This document shows, one piece after another, positions 54-27,263 of a stretch of 28,619 nucleotides of DNA; position 1 is the first letter of the stretch; the number at the start of each line of letters is the position of its first letter. Both the position numbers and the translations under genes were made by a program. Under the pieces are notes generated by a model. It did not search any database. It was not told the DNA's origin and saw only the letters and a list, made by a program, of their open reading frames with translations. The DNA is from a virus, in the IMG/VR virus record IMGVR_UViG_3300003885_000036, positions 1 through 28,619 of that record; one strand, written 5' to 3'.

Positions 54-419
54 CTAATCCTCCCCCACCAAATCATCGTACTCTAATTCAACAGATGTTA
101 TTTTAGGAAATGTTCCACTACTCGAGGCGAGAGTATACCCTATTTCTATCTCCTTTGCTCTAGTATACAAAGATTCCTCAATCCTAGTATTCCCTACAGT
201 ACTCGCAGCTGTCCCATTAGTAAAAGAACTTGCCCTATCATACTTGTGTTTAGGTGTTACCGATTCTCCCGATGCCAAAGACTCAAAGTTGACAGTTAAT
301 GTCATAGGTAAAAACTGCTTGTCAGAATCCCCCCCATCAAATATTAAACTCTCAAACTCTCCACTAGCATCAGCGTTGTCTCCTAAAGATATCTTATCTA
401 TTCCATATATTGTTGCCAT
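54..419 (-). CDS. C-terminal fragment of a split virion protein
   Basis: A 121-residue protein, mostly beta-strand in character, starting MATIYGIDKIS. Its start has a clear ribosome site (AAAGGAG, about 12 bases upstream). Read after the upstream fragment, which ends VGTDLYIGWQDEE, it continues what looks like one protein: a 'YIGW...YGIDK' join followed by a strand-rich C-terminal domain, as in phage virion proteins of this general form. The HNH endonuclease gene at 398-895 sits exactly between the halves and overlaps this start by 22 bases. I infer one ancestral gene now made as two chains that would have to associate. The exact function is unknown; a tail or connector role is likely from position. 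Confidence 0.7.
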   Translation of the reverse strand: MATIYGIDKISLGDNADASGEFESLIFDGGDSDKQFLPMTLTVNFESLASGESVTPKHKYDRASSFTNGTAASTVGNTRIEESLYTRAKEIEIGYTLASSSGTFPKITSVELEYDDLVGED

Positions 420-895
420 TTTATAAATTCTCCTTTCTTGTTTCTTTTATTCATTAATTTATGTTTTGGACAGCGCCTTGACCCATAAGACAGGATCTTA
501 TAACAAACCCCGCACTTTGGTTTTCCACCGCGCCATTTAGGGCTATCTTTTCCACGAGGTGTTTCATATTTTTTATGCGCACTATTATCTGAGAACAACA
601 TAAGGTTCTCAACTCTATTATCATCTTTCACCCCGTTTATATGATGTACCTGTTCTTTCGGTGTAAGTAGCCTTCCCAGTTTCTTTTCCATCACTACTCT
701 ATGCTCAAAGACATACCCGTCCTTTACAGCCATTGGATGTTCTGGCATTCTCAACTTCACATAACCCCCAGATATGATTTTACCACCTATCCAGGCAGGA
801 TTACCTTTACCTTTAAAAGACCTCCTTTTATTTTTAATTCCCTCCCCAATTTTCTTAACATGAAAATCGGTTCTTTTGTATATTCCTTTTGGCAC
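398..895 (-). CDS. HNH homing endonuclease, free-standing, leaderless GTG start
   Basis: A 165-residue protein with an HNH core around residues 64-108: EHRVVMEKKLGR, then HHING (H84, H85), DDNRVENLML and H107. The family cuts DNA at a specific site and spreads its own gene by homing. Two similar short motifs flank the core (GNPAWIGGK near 31 and DSPKWRGGK near 118), probably DNA contacts. A C-terminal Cys/His set (C128, C131, C142, H145) may bind zinc. The start is GTG, six bases after TGGTATAAT (902-910), with no ribosome site. The gene separates two fragments of one virion protein, and its last codons overlap the downstream fragment. Flanking space is too small for a group I intron, so it is an inserted free-standing endonuclease. 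Confidence 0.9.
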   Translation of the reverse strand: MPKGIYKRTDFHVKKIGEGIKNKRRSFKGKGNPAWIGGKIISGGYVKLRMPEHPMAVKDGYVFEHRVVMEKKLGRLLTPKEQVHHINGVKDDNRVENLMLFSDNSAHKKYETPRGKDSPKWRGGKPKCGVCYKILSYGSRRCPKHKLMNKRNKKGEFIKWQQYME

Positions 896-15258: not shown

Positions 15259-17187
15259 TTACACCGTTTCCTCAGGCGGTGGCTCCGTAGATTGTGCTAT
15301 AGCCTGGACTTCTGGACTCTCCTGCGGTACTTGAGTTGGTTGTTGCCCCAAAGAGTCTACTTGCTCTTGTGTGTCTTTTTTATCTTCAATAAACTTCTGG
15401 AAATATAACGCAGGGGATGTATTAAATAGGATCAATTTTTCGGCTCTACCTTTTGGATCATCTGCTTCAGTGTCTCTAAAAAAACTAATAGGGTCAGTCA
15501 TTTGTATGCCAGCACGGTCAAATGCTTCTGATTTACGTCTTATCTTATCAACCGAACTCGCACTAACCTCAACTTCAACACCGTCTTCAACCAAATCTCG
15601 ATCTAGTTTTTGGAATACAACCTTACCATCCTTACCCACGAGTCTTTCAAGATGTTCTTCCGTATAAAATAATTTAATAAATTGTAATGCCCAATCTGCC
15701 ATCCACTCACCTGCTGGGTTGATAGTAGCCTCAACCTCATCATCGATTCTAGTAAAGTCTGACTCTTTAAATAGTTGTGTCTTAGTTGCAGGATCTGGAC
15801 CTTCACGAACACCTCTTAATGCGGCGTTAGTACCCATTTTGCTAAACAACCGTTCTCTGTTTATGTTTTGATCTTGAAACAATGCCTGTGTAGGTGGCGT
15901 ACCAGGTATGAACGTGTGTACTTTACTAAGATCACCGTCTACTAATAAATCTTGGTCGGGATTACCTTGGTCGTATTCTTCAACGTCTTTTGCATCCATA
16001 CCGCTATCGGTACTGAATACGTTCTTACCTTTAGTAAGTGCTGCAAGTTCTGTTATCTGTTTACCCCGTACGTTAATATTATCCTGTAAGTAAATAGACT
16101 GCTCAATTCTAGTAGTTTCGTCATAAACCTGCATACCTAGCTGTTTGTATCCCATTAAGTAATAAGGTTTACGTGGGTTTCTAAAATGGTTATGATAAAT
16201 CCGTTCAGTTCTTAAACCTTCTATTGGTTGACCTGTAACAAGTGATTGTCTTATATCAGCTTCTTCTAGTGATTGTTTTCCAGTCTCGGTATCAAAGGTA
16301 AACATTGTGGTTTCACCTTCCCAGTCCCAGTAAGGATTCTTAATCTTATCAAATACCACATCTTTGTACTTCCATGCAGTACCTTCAAGTCTTACCCATT
16401 CCTCACCCTCCTTTTTGTACCAGGTGAACCATATCTCAGCTATTCTTAATTTAGTAGCTAGTTTCTTCTCGTTTTCTATGTCATCCTTTGACCACTTCAA
16501 CTCATTTAATAACTCTTGTTTCTTGCTAGGCCATCTCATTAACAATTCTTTTACTGATAACTCATAATGCTCTGCTATCCAGTCCATTTCGTTAACATCG
16601 TTGCTTGTAGCTGTATGGTCTACATCTACGTTATTAGGATGTACACTCTCAAATACATAGTCTCCTAGTCGTCCTTTTTCACTGTCCCAACGTGCTTTTA
16701 GAATACCTGTAAAGTAAATAGGTCTGTGTGTGTAAGCACGTCCTAGGATCACTCTGTTCTCTCGTTTTCGTATTCTACTGTTAACAACATCTGTTAAGTT
16801 CTCTGCAATTTCTCTGCTCTCCTCACTATCATTACCTGGAGTTACTATAAGATCTGGAACACGTCCAACAGCCACAGCTTTGAGTGTGCCTTCGCTTTCA
16901 AATATTATATTATCTAAGTATCTCGCGTGGTAGGGTTTGAGTTTACCGTCTTTCTCCATATGAGATATCTGTTGCCCTAACCAGTATTCCTCGTTCTTCT
17001 CTCTACGAGAGTACAATCTTTTTTTCTTAAAGAACGCTCTGCTGTCTTTAACACGCTGGTTCATTACCTCAACAAAATCACTATCCTTTAGATCAAGTCT
17101 TAGTGCGTCCATATTGTCACCAGCTTCTTGTACTACAAGACCTGGACTATCTGTTTGAAATGTATTCTCTCCGAAAAATTCCGCCAT
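15259..17187 (-). CDS. Portal protein
   Basis: A 642-residue protein located between terminase and scaffold. Portal-type features: an N-terminal region with LYSRREKNEEYWLGQQI, YLDNIIFESEGTLKAVAVGR and IVTPGNDSEESREIAENLTD; a crown and stem region with IEQSIYLQDNINVRGKQITE and REGPDPATKTQLFKESDF; and a Pro/Gln-rich tail. Twelve copies form the ring through which DNA enters. Start ATG six bases after TGGTATAAT, no ribosome site. The size fits large portals of podo-like and sipho-like phages. Confidence 0.85.
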   Translation of the reverse strand: MAEFFGENTFQTDSPGLVVQEAGDNMDALRLDLKDSDFVEVMNQRVKDSRAFFKKKRLYSRREKNEEYWLGQQISHMEKDGKLKPYHARYLDNIIFESEGTLKAVAVGRVPDLIVTPGNDSEESREIAENLTDVVNSRIRKRENRVILGRAYTHRPIYFTGILKARWDSEKGRLGDYVFESVHPNNVDVDHTATSNDVNEMDWIAEHYELSVKELLMRWPSKKQELLNELKWSKDDIENEKKLATKLRIAEIWFTWYKKEGEEWVRLEGTAWKYKDVVFDKIKNPYWDWEGETTMFTFDTETGKQSLEEADIRQSLVTGQPIEGLRTERIYHNHFRNPRKPYYLMGYKQLGMQVYDETTRIEQSIYLQDNINVRGKQITELAALTKGKNVFSTDSGMDAKDVEEYDQGNPDQDLLVDGDLSKVHTFIPGTPPTQALFQDQNINRERLFSKMGTNAALRGVREGPDPATKTQLFKESDFTRIDDEVEATINPAGEWMADWALQFIKLFYTEEHLERLVGKDGKVVFQKLDRDLVEDGVEVEVSASSVDKIRRKSEAFDRAGIQMTDPISFFRDTEADDPKGRAEKLILFNTSPALYFQKFIEDKKDTQEQVDSLGQQPTQVPQESPEVQAIAQSTEPPPEETV

Positions 17188-17479: not shown

Positions 17480-17488
17480 ATTATATCA
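17480..17488 (-). promoter_or_regulatory. Extended -10 promoter, leaderless, at the terminase 3' end
   Basis: TGA-TATAAT, then CAATAC, then ATG at 17473. The TGA of this box is also the stop codon of the terminase gene. Confidence 0.6.
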
Positions 17489-19381
17489 GACGCGCCAATC
17501 CTTAGCGCCTGTTGATTTAGTTGTCTCAAACAACTCTAGGTCTAGTTCGTGCATTACCTCAGGTAATACTTTCTTTTTAGTGGGTTTAGCACCAACACCA
17601 CCAAGCTTGAGAGGTAAGAATCTTATAGCAGATAATCCATACGATAAACTGTCCACTAGATGGTCCTCAAGATTTGTATCAATATCTTCAACATTATGGT
17701 CATCGTAAACCATTAACGGAAGGGTTCTTATAAGGTGAGGGCACGCTTCTGTAATTAACATGTAGGGTAAACCGTCTGGTGCTATTGACAACCAGTTGTG
17801 TATAGTTGCTACTCTAGCTATTCGATTCCTACCACCAGGTTTAAGAGTCAGCCACATCTTATCTCCATTAAGCTCTGTCCATTTCTCTTGCATTAGTTTA
17901 CTAATAGCCTTACTACCGTCGGTTTGGGTATTAAACATGGCAGGGTCAGCGTAACCTCCTCTAAACTTAGCTACTGGTCGCTCATCGTATATCTTTTCAG
18001 CCCATTCGTGAGGGTATTTATATTTCCCATACCATTCTCTGTAAACTATAACTCTGTTAAATGTTTGTCCGTCATGTTTAGCTTTGACAAGAGCTGCTGC
18101 AAGACCTGCAAATGCTCCTCTGTGACTCTTTCTACCGCTGTAACCCCAGTCCAACCATAGAAAGTGTGGAAACTGTGGTTTTGGTACAACACGTCTCGTT
18201 ACATGTTTCTCACGTCTAAACTCATCAAATACTTGTCCTGCGAATACATCCCAATCACCCTCTAACCAGGCGCGTCTGAGTTCATCGGGTAGGTCTTGTA
18301 ATCTTTTTAGGTAGTCGGGGTCAGCATCCATTAAAGCTGCGTTGTCGTAGACCTTAGCCTGCACGAAGTCAAAATCTTCTGGTCTTTCGTCTTCTGTGAA
18401 ATCTCTATCCACAAACATACGCTTCGCCCAACCGTGTCCAACACCCCCAGGGTTCCCAGTTAAGAACATAGAAGGTTTGATATCTTTATTAGTAGTGCGA
18501 TTTGAACCTCTTAACATCTTAAACACTATTTCTTCATGTTGAGTTATCTCATCAATAGAAATATCTTCGTATTCTCTACCTTGGTATGTGTAAACATCAC
18601 TTGTTCCTTTAAGATATGAAAACTCTGTTATTGATCCATTAGGCCAGTAGATAGCTTTTTCAGACTGTTTAAACCAGTCCTTAGTCATTGGGTATTCTTT
18701 CCAAAACATTCTTATATGGTTTGACAGCAATTCTGGATATGTTTTACGGATAATCAATCCTTTAGTATTTGGGTATTTCAATCTACGGTATATTTCTCTA
18801 GCTCTAACAAGATAACTATTGTGGGTAACTATAAAATCGTCCGTAATATACAGCCCATCTGGATTATCTAATGTTATACATTTAGCCTCGCCGCTACCAA
18901 ACTCAACTATACTACTCAACCTAAGAAGTTTCTTATTCTTGAATTCAACGCCACTAAACAAGGGAATCTGTACATTTGGACGGGTAGTGGCCGTACTAGA
19001 ATTTGCAATATTCAACCTGTTTATTAATTCCTCCGTTGTGCCAATTCTCCACCTGTGCTTCCTACCAGTAATTTTAAATTTCCACAGATGATCTAATGTG
19101 ACAACAGTACTGGACCCGTCAATAAATGTGACTTTGTATAATGCCCTCACTCCTTGAGGGTGTGTTCGCAAAACTACGGCCTCGACACCTTTATCAGTTA
19201 TAACTTTGTCACCAGCTGATATATCACCCATTTTAACAAAGCCCCTTGGCGTGAGGATTTTCGATTCCACACTTTGAGCTTTGCCACCTCCTCGACTACC
19301 GCCATAAAATAATACGGGTATTTTAAGGGAGGCTTGAAATGCTTCTTTTTGTTTCTTTTGGAGCTTTAATTCTATTTGCAT
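17486..19381 (-). CDS. terL: Terminase large subunit, interrupted by an intein
   Basis: A 631-residue precursor; about 477 after intein removal. It packages DNA: an N-terminal ATPase and a C-terminal nuclease. The Walker A loop GGSRGGGK (27-34) is split from its S (189) by the intein and becomes GGSRGGGKS after splicing. Walker B is DISIDE (273-278). Candidate nuclease acids: D411 in LWLDWGYS, D479 in GGYADPAMF and D577 in HLVDSLSYGL. The start at 19381 overlaps the gene upstream (19323-19562) by 59 bases. Without splicing the ATPase cannot form, so packaging depends on the intein. Confidence 0.95.
   Translation of the reverse strand: MQIELKLQKKQKEAFQASLKIPVLFYGGSRGGGKAQSVESKILTPRGFVKMGDISAGDKVITDKGVEAVVLRTHPQGVRALYKVTFIDGSSTVVTLDHLWKFKITGRKHRWRIGTTEELINRLNIANSSTATTRPNVQIPLFSGVEFKNKKLLRLSSIVEFGSGEAKCITLDNPDGLYITDDFIVTHNSYLVRAREIYRRLKYPNTKGLIIRKTYPELLSNHIRMFWKEYPMTKDWFKQSEKAIYWPNGSITEFSYLKGTSDVYTYQGREYEDISIDEITQHEEIVFKMLRGSNRTTNKDIKPSMFLTGNPGGVGHGWAKRMFVDRDFTEDERPEDFDFVQAKVYDNAALMDADPDYLKRLQDLPDELRRAWLEGDWDVFAGQVFDEFRREKHVTRRVVPKPQFPHFLWLDWGYSGRKSHRGAFAGLAAALVKAKHDGQTFNRVIVYREWYGKYKYPHEWAEKIYDERPVAKFRGGYADPAMFNTQTDGSKAISKLMQEKWTELNGDKMWLTLKPGGRNRIARVATIHNWLSIAPDGLPYMLITEACPHLIRTLPLMVYDDHNVEDIDTNLEDHLVDSLSYGLSAIRFLPLKLGGVGAKPTKKKVLPEVMHELDLELFETTKSTGAKDWRV
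18818..19279 (-). mobile_element. Class 3-type mini-intein in the TerL Walker A loop
   Basis: 154 residues (35-188 of the precursor), with no homing endonuclease domain. Block A is ESKILTPRGFVKMGDISAGD. Block B is TLDHLW: T95, H98, and W100 at B:12. Block F is KCITLDNPDG, with C168 at F:4. Block G ends T186-H187-N188. Residue 1 is Ala, not Cys or Ser, and +1 is Ser. The Trp-Cys-Thr set with a non-nucleophilic first residue is the signature of class 3 inteins, in which the block F Cys forms the first branch. Insertion between K and S of the P-loop is exact. I set the boundary at Ala35 from the alignment of block A and from the reconstituted GxxGGGKS. Confidence 0.9.
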
Positions 19382-19572: not shown

Positions 19573-20022
19573 TCAATAGTCGCGGACAATTACTTCAATT
19601 GTTTCTCCGTCTGTTCTTACTCCTATAGTACTTTCCTTTTTATCCATGCCCAACCATTTACCTGCTGTTTCTAAATACTTATGTCTTACTGCATGGTCTG
19701 GCACTTCTATAAAGTCGGTATCTGTTCCAGTAGACTGTTTCCCAGATATTGCAGAAATAATCCTATCAGCTTTTAACCCGTCATCCATCGTATCTAACAG
19801 CCTGCCCAGTCCCAGCCCCTTCTTCTCCATTAGTTGTTTGGTTGTTATTTGATGTTTTTTAAGTATGCCGTAAGCTAGCTGTCCTGCGGTTGAATAGTCC
19901 TCAGTGTCATAAGCAATTAGTGCTGATTTTGTACCATTTCCAAAGGTCTTACTTTCAGGGTCAAGGTACAATTTCAAAAACAACTTCTGTTTAGGGGTTA
20001 ATTTAACACCTTCATTTTTCAT
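19573..20022 (-). CDS. terS: Terminase small subunit
   Basis: A 149-residue protein that opens KLTPKQKLFLKLYLDPESKT then GTKSALIAY, the N-terminal DNA-binding helix-turn-helix pattern of phage small terminases. A helical middle (AYGILKKHQITTKQLMEKKG) and a short C-terminal part (VRHKYLETAGKWLGMDKKES) follow. It recognises the packaging site and loads the large subunit. Ribosome site GAGGAAAG. The start overlaps the gene upstream by 11 bases. Confidence 0.85.
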   Translation of the reverse strand: MKNEGVKLTPKQKLFLKLYLDPESKTFGNGTKSALIAYDTEDYSTAGQLAYGILKKHQITTKQLMEKKGLGLGRLLDTMDDGLKADRIISAISGKQSTGTDTDFIEVPDHAVRHKYLETAGKWLGMDKKESTIGVRTDGETIEVIVRDY

Positions 20023-20831: not shown

Positions 20832-22974
<2,143 letters not shown>

Positions 22975-23300: not shown

Positions 23301-23711
23301 TCAGTTATACTCCAACATGGAGTTATGCTCTTTCTTATAATACTCAATTTCTTTCTTTAACCAGCTTTTGTCGAATTTATGTACTTTGTTACTTAATCTA
23401 AATAGTCTTTCATCCTCTCCCGTACCGTACTTTTCTACAATAGATCGTCTATGTTCTTCTACCATACCATGCTTAAATCGATTGCAAGATCTGCACTGCG
23501 CTGAAACGTTATGTTCATCGTATCTTGTAGATCCTTTGCTTCGCCCTCTCCAATGTCCAGCGTCCATTAACTTTATAGGTTTTCTGGTATCACATGTGAC
23601 ACATATAGCGTATTCTTTTGTACCTGTTGTTATGAGAGCGTCCCTCAGGCGAATGAACTTTGAGAAGATTTTGTCTAACTTGGCTTTGAGTTCGGGTATA
23701 GATTCTGCCAT
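23301..23711 (-). CDS. ninG: NinG/Rap-like recombination nuclease
   Basis: A 136-residue protein with the NinG pattern: C37-V-T-C40, then MDAGHWRGRSKGSTRYDEHN with H53, and QCRSCNRFKHG with C73 and C76. The family (lambda Rap/NinG) acts on branched DNA in recombination. This is the short form: it lacks the long N-terminal part of lambda Rap but keeps the Cys/His core. Site TGAGGT before ATG at 23711, and TGG-TATTAT just upstream could serve as a -10. Confidence 0.8.
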   Translation of the reverse strand: MAESIPELKAKLDKIFSKFIRLRDALITTGTKEYAICVTCDTRKPIKLMDAGHWRGRSKGSTRYDEHNVSAQCRSCNRFKHGMVEEHRRSIVEKYGTGEDERLFRLSNKVHKFDKSWLKKEIEYYKKEHNSMLEYN

Positions 23712-26637: not shown

Positions 26638-26821
26638 TGTTTTCATCCTTTAACCAACTGTGAAGAAGCCTTTTTGCCATGCCATAGTCTTTCCAGTATA
26701 TAAAATGTAAAACATCAACTATTTTTGCGCTCGCTCTCTGTTCTACAAATTCCTTTAGAAATCTATCCCTAGCTTCCCAATAATTTATTATTGCATCATT
26801 CTTTTCTGATTTTTTATTCAT
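26630..26821 (-). CDS. Hypothetical protein, 63 residues
   Basis: MNKKSEKNDAIINYWEARDR..., helical and charged, with IVDVLHFIYWKDYGMAKRLL at the C-terminal half. The start overlaps the YopX gene by eight bases. Function is unknown. Confidence 0.55.
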   Translation of the reverse strand: MNKKSEKNDAIINYWEARDRFLKEFVEQRASAKIVDVLHFIYWKDYGMAKRLLHSWLKDENND

Positions 26822-27263
26822 AATTTCCTTTCAATAATTTCTGATCTTTATAAATATTTCCTATTACTTCAGATACTTCGGCAATATTTATTCCTTTTGT
26901 TTTTTTTCCAACCCGTTCAAACATAGGTATTGCTTCTTCGCCGCGCCTAAAGAACACACAACAGTTTTCTATTTTTATCTCGAATATGTTATAACCCCAA
27001 TCATTAACCTTCTTAAATCCAAACCTGCCAACATACCCTCTATCTGCTTTTAGAATGTCTCCCTCATAAATCTCTACGCCGTTTTTATCCTTTAATCCTG
27101 TGTATTGCATAACCTCCCACTCGTGATAATCACCCATTCCTTTCTTGTTTCCTAAAAACTCGTCAAATGTATAATGGCTCAAATCAGTAAATTTAGTACC
27201 TCTTTGCACATTAAAATACATAATTTTATCTTTTTTATCATAAGCTCTAAATTTAATTTTCAT
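26814..27263 (-). CDS. YopX-family protein
   Basis: A 149-residue protein. Begins KIKFRAYDKKDKIMYFNVQ and carries the family core MQYTGLKDKNGVEIYEGDIL at 52-71, then a beta-rich C-terminal half and EVIGNIYKDQ near the end. YopX proteins are common in phages of Gram-positive and other hosts; their role is not settled. The length is usual. Confidence 0.85.
   Translation of the reverse strand: MKIKFRAYDKKDKIMYFNVQRGTKFTDLSHYTFDEFLGNKKGMGDYHEWEVMQYTGLKDKNGVEIYEGDILKADRGYVGRFGFKKVNDWGYNIFEIKIENCCVFFRRGEEAIPMFERVGKKTKGINIAEVSEVIGNIYKDQKLLKGNYE

Follow-up and report, generated by a model that had tools for sequence, protein, structure and literature searches.

A predicted class 3 mini-intein in the Walker A loop of a phage terminase large subunit, and stop-opening insertions in the same loop of related terL genes

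The sequence analysed is the 28.6-kb virus record IMGVR_UViG_3300003885_000036 (28,619 nt), referred to here as the window. Profile searches identified a 631-residue open reading frame (ORF) as the large subunit of terminase (TerL), with matches to Pfam PF04466 Terminase_3 (E = 4e-5) and to the PHROG large-subunit profiles phrog_979 (E = 7e-33) and phrog_2 (E = 6e-27). A gene for the small terminase subunit lies upstream of terL and a portal-like gene downstream, and therefore terL sits in an ordinary packaging module. Phage-encoded homologues of GroEL and GroES lie near the packaging genes, and the window also encodes a NinG-like and a YopX-like protein (Table 1). An Rfam search of the window found nothing.

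The ORF carries an insert of 154 residues exactly between the Lys and the Ser of the TerL Walker A motif, GGSRGGGK/S (the slash marks the insertion site; GGSRGGGK spans ORF residues 27-34). This corresponds to the P-loop site of the TerL1-a type, right after the Walker A Lys and before Ser or Thr. Comparison with related terminases revealed the empty site: the loop reads FFGGARGGGK/SFLIRAREVYRRLKYP in L003 (TerL 61% identical) and FYGGAKGGGK/SYLVRAREIYRRLKYP in L162 (69% identical), and it is also uninterrupted in the TerL of L163, L164, L165 and other relatives by TerL sequence. These empty sites uphold the site and both boundaries that an earlier note on this DNA had proposed. That note had also named what would speak against an intein, namely homologous terminases carrying the same residues as native sequence; the TerL relatives lack the insert. 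The alignments thus indicate that the insert is foreign to TerL and not a product of chance.

Table 1. Features of the window, and terL genes with interrupted P-loops in related contigs
Feature	Position or contigs	Strand	Description or evidence
HNH_3 endonuclease gene, free-standing	398..895	-	165 aa, 18 kb from terL; 50% identical over 68 aa to the HNH beside L002 terL
Portal-like gene	15259-17187		phrog_156
TerL precursor ORF	17486..19381	-	631 aa: N-extein 34, intein 154, C-extein 443 aa
C-extein	17486..18817	-	Remainder of TerL, 443 aa; relatives 60-70% identical
Ser +1	18815..18817	-	Doubles as Walker A Ser (ORF residue 189); sequence
Predicted class 3 mini-intein	18818..19279	-	154 aa (AQSVES...FIVTHN), ORF residues 35-188; sequence, alignments, model
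Block G end Thr-His-Asn	18818..18826	-	G:5, G:6, G:7 (T152, H153, N154); Thr G:5 in 64/64 relatives
Cys F:4	18878..18880	-	C134 of intein, C168 of ORF; predicted first nucleophile and branch point; 64/64 relatives
Junction F113/K114 of intein	18940..18941	-	Site of ~200 aa LAGLIDADG in L082 and L179; alignment, PF14528
Block B core TLDHLW	19082..19099	-	Trp in 63/64 relatives
Trp B:12	19082-19084	-	W66 of intein; sequence
His B:10	19088-19090	-	H64 of intein; sequence
Thr B:7	19097-19099	-	T61 of intein; sequence
Ala1	19277..19279	-	A35 of ORF; non-nucleophile; Ala in 40/64 relatives
N-extein	19280..19381	-	Ends GGSRGGGK; Walker A up to Lys at 19280-19303; aligned to empty sites of L003, L162-L180
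Small terminase subunit	19573-20022		phrog_51
GroEL homologue	21072-22679	-	phrog_5725, E = 1e-146
GroES homologue	22660-22974	-	phrog_3188, E = 1e-19
NinG-like protein	23301-23711	-	PF05766
YopX-like protein	26814-27263	-	PF09643
HNH directly upstream, terL P-loop broken	L170, L251, L252/L253, L254, L255/L256/L257/L260, L258, L369, L372, L373		
Different, NUMOD-like HNH upstream, terL P-loop broken	L029, L330		NUMOD reading by eye
Stop-containing P-loop interruption	L008/L009, L013, L017/L028, L033, L332, L347, L351		No HNH seen directly upstream

The intein blocks read in the earlier note are all present, with Ala1, Trp B:12, Cys F:4, Thr G:5, the terminal His-Asn and Ser+1. The set of C134 (F:4), W66 (B:12) and T152 (G:5) is that of class 3 inteins, in which a nucleophile at position 1 is dispensable. 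A sequence search of the PDB found the class 3 Msm DnaB intein 6bs8 as the best solved chain (E = 1.5e-7), followed by the gp41-1 and Mch DnaB1 (class 3) inteins, and the insert alone matches hundreds of phage records. The profile search that had been suggested as a check gave a divided answer, weak in generic libraries (TIGR01445, E = 0.08; Hint_2, E = 0.017) and clear with the intein-containing PHROG profiles (E = 8e-13). The weak Pfam and NCBIfam matches were considered as counter-evidence and rejected, as the PHROG, PDB and structure matches are clear.

An AlphaFold2 model of the intein, built from an alignment of 54 inteins, has a mean pLDDT of 88.9 and a pTM of 0.84. Foldseek comparison of the model with the PDB yielded class 3 DnaB inteins at ranks 1-6, with E values of 7e-10 to 4e-9 and the Hint fold. 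The VIA comparison gave a Z score of 18.7 to 6riy at 27% identity, and placed the class 1 DnaB mini-intein 6frh (Z = 19.3) level with the class 3 structures; therefore the fold alone cannot decide the class. The class call rests on the residues together with the ranking by sequence and by Foldseek, and since the full signature is present and class 3 structures come top in both, the class 3 assignment made in the earlier note is well supported. We propose that the insert is a class 3 mini-intein at the Walker A Lys/Ser site of TerL, with a probability of about 0.93.

Similar inteins are known at comparable sites. The Mycobacterium class 3 DnaB-1 mini-inteins (Msm 6bs8, Mch 6riy/6rix and Mle) share the residue set, the Hint fold and the compact form, and they also lie between a Walker A Lys and Ser, in FGVGK/STLGL (PMC5222942); they have 139-145 residues and reside in DnaB, whereas the present intein has 154 residues, resides in TerL and is 26-27% identical to them over the structural alignment. 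In mycobacteriophages the most common inteins are those of terminases, and the TerL1-a P-loop inteins found there likewise follow the invariant Walker A Lys of the large subunit and precede Thr (PMC5050341). Unlike these, the window intein precedes Ser, belongs to another TerL family, has no endonuclease and bears the class 3 signature. Inteins in TerL are frequent in some crAss-like phages as well (PMC7886860). Both the TerL P-loop site and class 3 P-loop mini-inteins (in DnaB) are thus already known, and the window adds one example: a compact, endonuclease-free class 3 intein that would gate an essential phage motor.

A set of 64 related phage inteins was fetched by similarity to the window intein, so that its figures describe the family of this intein and not inteins at large. 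Within the set, Cys F:4 and Thr G:5 are invariant (64/64 each), Trp B:12 is found in 63/64 and Ala1 in 40/64, and a Walker-A-like Lys precedes the intein in 58/64. Class 3 inteins between the Walker A Lys and Ser or Thr are thus the common type among related phage inteins, and the window case is less exceptional than the earlier note held. Only three others among the 64 are shorter than 200 residues.

The insert is a mini-intein of 154 residues with no endonuclease domain; neither LAGLIDADG nor HNH was matched in it with Pfam, NCBIfam or PHROG profiles. Longer inteins occupy the same TerL site in L082 (IMGVR 3300014656_000158; 357 aa) and L179 (IMGVR 3300001752_000046; 354 aa), and both contain PF14528 LAGLIDADG_3. 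They share the class 3 residues and are 48% and 47% identical, respectively, to the window intein over residues 2-113, and the L082 TerL is ~50% identical to the window TerL over the first 232 C-extein residues. The window intein is otherwise collinear with them, but ~200 residues are absent between F113 and K114. Judged from this alignment, the window intein has lost a LAGLIDADG domain still present in its nearest relatives. The earlier note had seen no endonuclease domain and concluded that the element cannot home alone; the first agrees with the absence of the LAGLIDADG of the sister inteins, and the second is right as stated for an insert without endonuclease. Therefore, the element would now be inherited vertically or through general recombination. 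Since this position is filled by a full-length intein in some relatives and empty in others, every stage of the homing cycle is open to comparison. The L082 contig also contains a sub-threshold match to the hammerhead II ribozyme at 1524-1582 on the minus strand (33.4 bits, gathering threshold 37, E = 0.004).

Based on the established class 3 pathway (PMC5222942, PMC7664689, PMC4031507), we infer that the window TerL splices as follows (ORF numbering). The precursor would be made as one chain of 631 residues. Cys168 (F:4) would attack the Lys34-Ala35 peptide bond to give the block F branched thioester, with His98 and Thr186 activating that bond and Trp100 packing the site. The N-extein would then transfer to Ser189 (+1), cyclization of Asn188 would free the intein, and an O-to-N shift would join ...GGGK to SYLV..., restoring GGSRGGGKS. 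The predicted ligated product is GGSRGGGKSYLV. In E. coli reporters, class 3 DnaB mini-inteins at the equivalent GVGK/S site are able to splice, and they no longer do so once Cys F:4, His B:10 or Trp B:12 is mutated (PMC5222942). As the P-loop remains split until splicing, TerL could bind ATP and package DNA only in its spliced form; the statement of the earlier note that there is no packaging without splicing is thus a sound expectation from the split Walker A motif.

The P-loop of terL is also interrupted in a different manner in related contigs. L002 (IMGVR 3300025736_001490; TerL 68% identical) has no intein; an HNH_3 endonuclease gene (L002:2788-3480) lies inside the 5' end of its terL, and behind the nuclease gene the start of terL is repeated. 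The second copy reads FYG GGC TGA CT GGT GCT AGA GGA GGT GGT AAG, in which the stop breaks the P-loop frame, and FYGGARGGGK would be regained if the ribosome hopped from GGC to GGT. Relatives of this HNH gene immediately precede terL genes belonging to several families, and in every such terL the P-loop is broken. Together with the NUMOD-like cases, the HNH-linked broken terL genes, including L002, L029 and L330, make up 12 lineages (Table 1). In L029 the NUMOD-like HNH ORF (2328-2975) starts with terL codons 1-5 (MQIDL) and is followed by a second terL start, and this nuclease gene appears to have been inserted within the terL start.

The gap opens with a stop codon in 18 lineages (L002 and at least 17 other terL lineages), and the insertions are 5-17 nt long; in L033 the stop is in frame (GGT TAG GGC), and the breaks of L252 and L254 read GCC TAG CT and GGT TAA ... 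GGT. In 14 of these 18 the ribosome would land on a codon synonymous with the one it left, which yields the canonical loop, whereas L170 and L258 would need a G.U wobble and the landing codons of L347 and L351 are mismatched. For an earlier set of 14 lineages, 12 of them synonymous, the chance of such codon matching at 1/8 per site is ~1e-9, a figure that ignores shared descent; L013, L029, L033, L330 and L332 likely share descent. Outside the stop type, L373 would hop from CCT to CCA. Stop-less P-loop frameshifts were also seen in the terL of L011 (about 850-885; GGT C GGT) and L167 (about 150-192; two extra A in an A run). L230 had been taken as an interrupted terL, and its P-loop proved intact on inspection.

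Of the 111 intact terL P-loops for which 700 nt or more of upstream sequence is available, none has an HNH motif within 1.3 kb. The Fisher test of HNH against interruption gives 9e-10, an inflated value, because it was through their HNH that several of the interrupted loci had been retrieved. The ORFs downstream of the breaks are long and open. Between L013 and L033, both interrupted, 0.75 of synonymous and 0.08 of nonsynonymous sites differ, and the corresponding values for L330 and L332 are 0.77 and 0.12. Therefore, the interrupted terL genes are not obviously dead. Sequencing error was rejected for the several lineages whose identical breaks recur in separate assemblies (L255/L256/L257/L260, L252/L253, L008/L009 and L017/L028), and any one single-contig lineage may contain such an error. 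A group I intron in the L002 gap was rejected, as neither L002 nor L170 has an Rfam intron match and L170 is without the upstream exon copy. Reassignment of the stop codon cannot account for the out-of-frame cases.

The stop-opening inserts look like natural ribosome-hop cassettes. The one bacterial case of programmed bypassing that has been studied well is T4 gene 60, and phage phiHau3 has been proposed as a second. In gene 60, matched GGA codons flank a 50-nt gap that opens with UAG, and the insert is tied to a homing endonuclease (PMC5009743). The terL genes have the same arrangement: as with T4 MobA and gene 60, an HNH gene lies beside an essential gene that is cut by a stop-opening insert with matched flanking codons. 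The stop directly follows the take-off codon in the 18 lineages, whereas L373, L011 and L167 are without a stop, and in the 14 synonymous cases the landing codon would be read by the same tRNA and the normal protein restored. The terL inserts differ in being 5-17 nt long rather than 50, in lying in Walker A and in occurring in many lineages, and their hop is predicted from sequence.

The terminase of Streptomyces phage phiHau3 has been proposed to bypass at UUA (PMC5009743). Its gene (L334, NC_018836, about 2600-2640) is broken in Walker A as GGC/TTACTCC/GGT AAG, where a glycine hop restores KGWGKD, and an HNH gene lies near the genome start. Similar to the metagenomic terL genes, the Walker A codons are interrupted and glycine codons surround the gap; a rare UUA codon takes the place of the stop, which until now has been explained as host-specific control. 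Five GenBank phage records inspected for a broken terL were all intact, and only phiHau3 is similar. A packaging role is documented for the HNH upstream of the HK97 terminase, and a non-homing role is possible for some of the terL-linked HNH genes. Homing endonuclease genes near terL are well documented (PMC10448857). A 2016 review knew of no natural in-frame stop hop (PMC5009743); as read here, L033, L251 and L372 would be such hops.

Several other readings of the window intein were weighed against the proposed one. A class 1 or class 2 intein that merely resembles class 3 would have the same Hint fold, and gp41-1 and cyanobacterial DnaB inteins match the insert too. Class 1 inteins have Cys, Ser or Thr at position 1, and Ala1 makes their first step impossible; class 2 (KlbA) inteins have Asp F:4 and Ser G:6 (PMC4031507), whereas the insert has His G:6, and its combination of Cys F:4 and Trp B:12 is that of class 3. 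We consider this reading highly improbable. The insert is also distinct from the bacterial intein-like domains of type A, which have no nucleophile at +1, as Ser occupies this position. It is nearly as improbable that the intein has decayed and no longer splices, leaving a dead terL in a defective phage. The endonuclease is gone, so decay could be in progress, and splicing is so far a prediction; however, every splicing residue is kept, both exteins are read in one open frame, and conservation between TerL and its relatives is high.

The two remaining readings, both unlikely though less so, concern how the class 3 mini-intein persists. It might still be mobile if a free-standing endonuclease that cuts empty terL P-loops moved it in trans, by analogy with phage group I introns, for which collaborative homing is known (PMC10448857, PMC2988022). 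Relatives have HNH genes directly against their terL P-loops and the window has an HNH_3 gene of its own, but that gene is distant from terL and shares only ~50% identity with the terL-linked HNHs across the core, and we regard it only as a candidate for mobilization in trans. Slightly better placed, yet still doubtful, is that the mini-intein is kept as a block to re-invasion, the occupied P-loop codons destroying the target of LAGLIDADG and HNH endonucleases alike. In related phages these codons are struck by two or more unrelated homing systems, and in T4 the gene 60 insert is believed to give protection from cleavage of this kind (PMC5009743), but persistence may just reflect the need for precise deletion. 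Since LAGLIDADG inteins and HNH genes both hit these codons, one might hypothesize that hiding the target accounts in part for the persistence of an intein without endonuclease.

Returning to the interrupted loops, the terL of the window is itself without a stop-type gap, and what it has in common with the stop-hop cases is the P-loop site. Taking both kinds of insertion together, we lean towards the reading that several unrelated homing systems have the terL P-loop codons as their common target, at which two kinds of altered allele have been kept: the intein, including that of the window, and a stop-opening insertion of 5-17 nt, usually beside an HNH gene, which would be hopped by ribosomes and form a natural stop-hop family. 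The terL stop inserts, if they hold, matter more than the intein. Many independent nuclease-linked cases in one gene would show the purpose of bypass elements, and the terL genes would form a collection from which the rules of ribosome hopping could be worked out.
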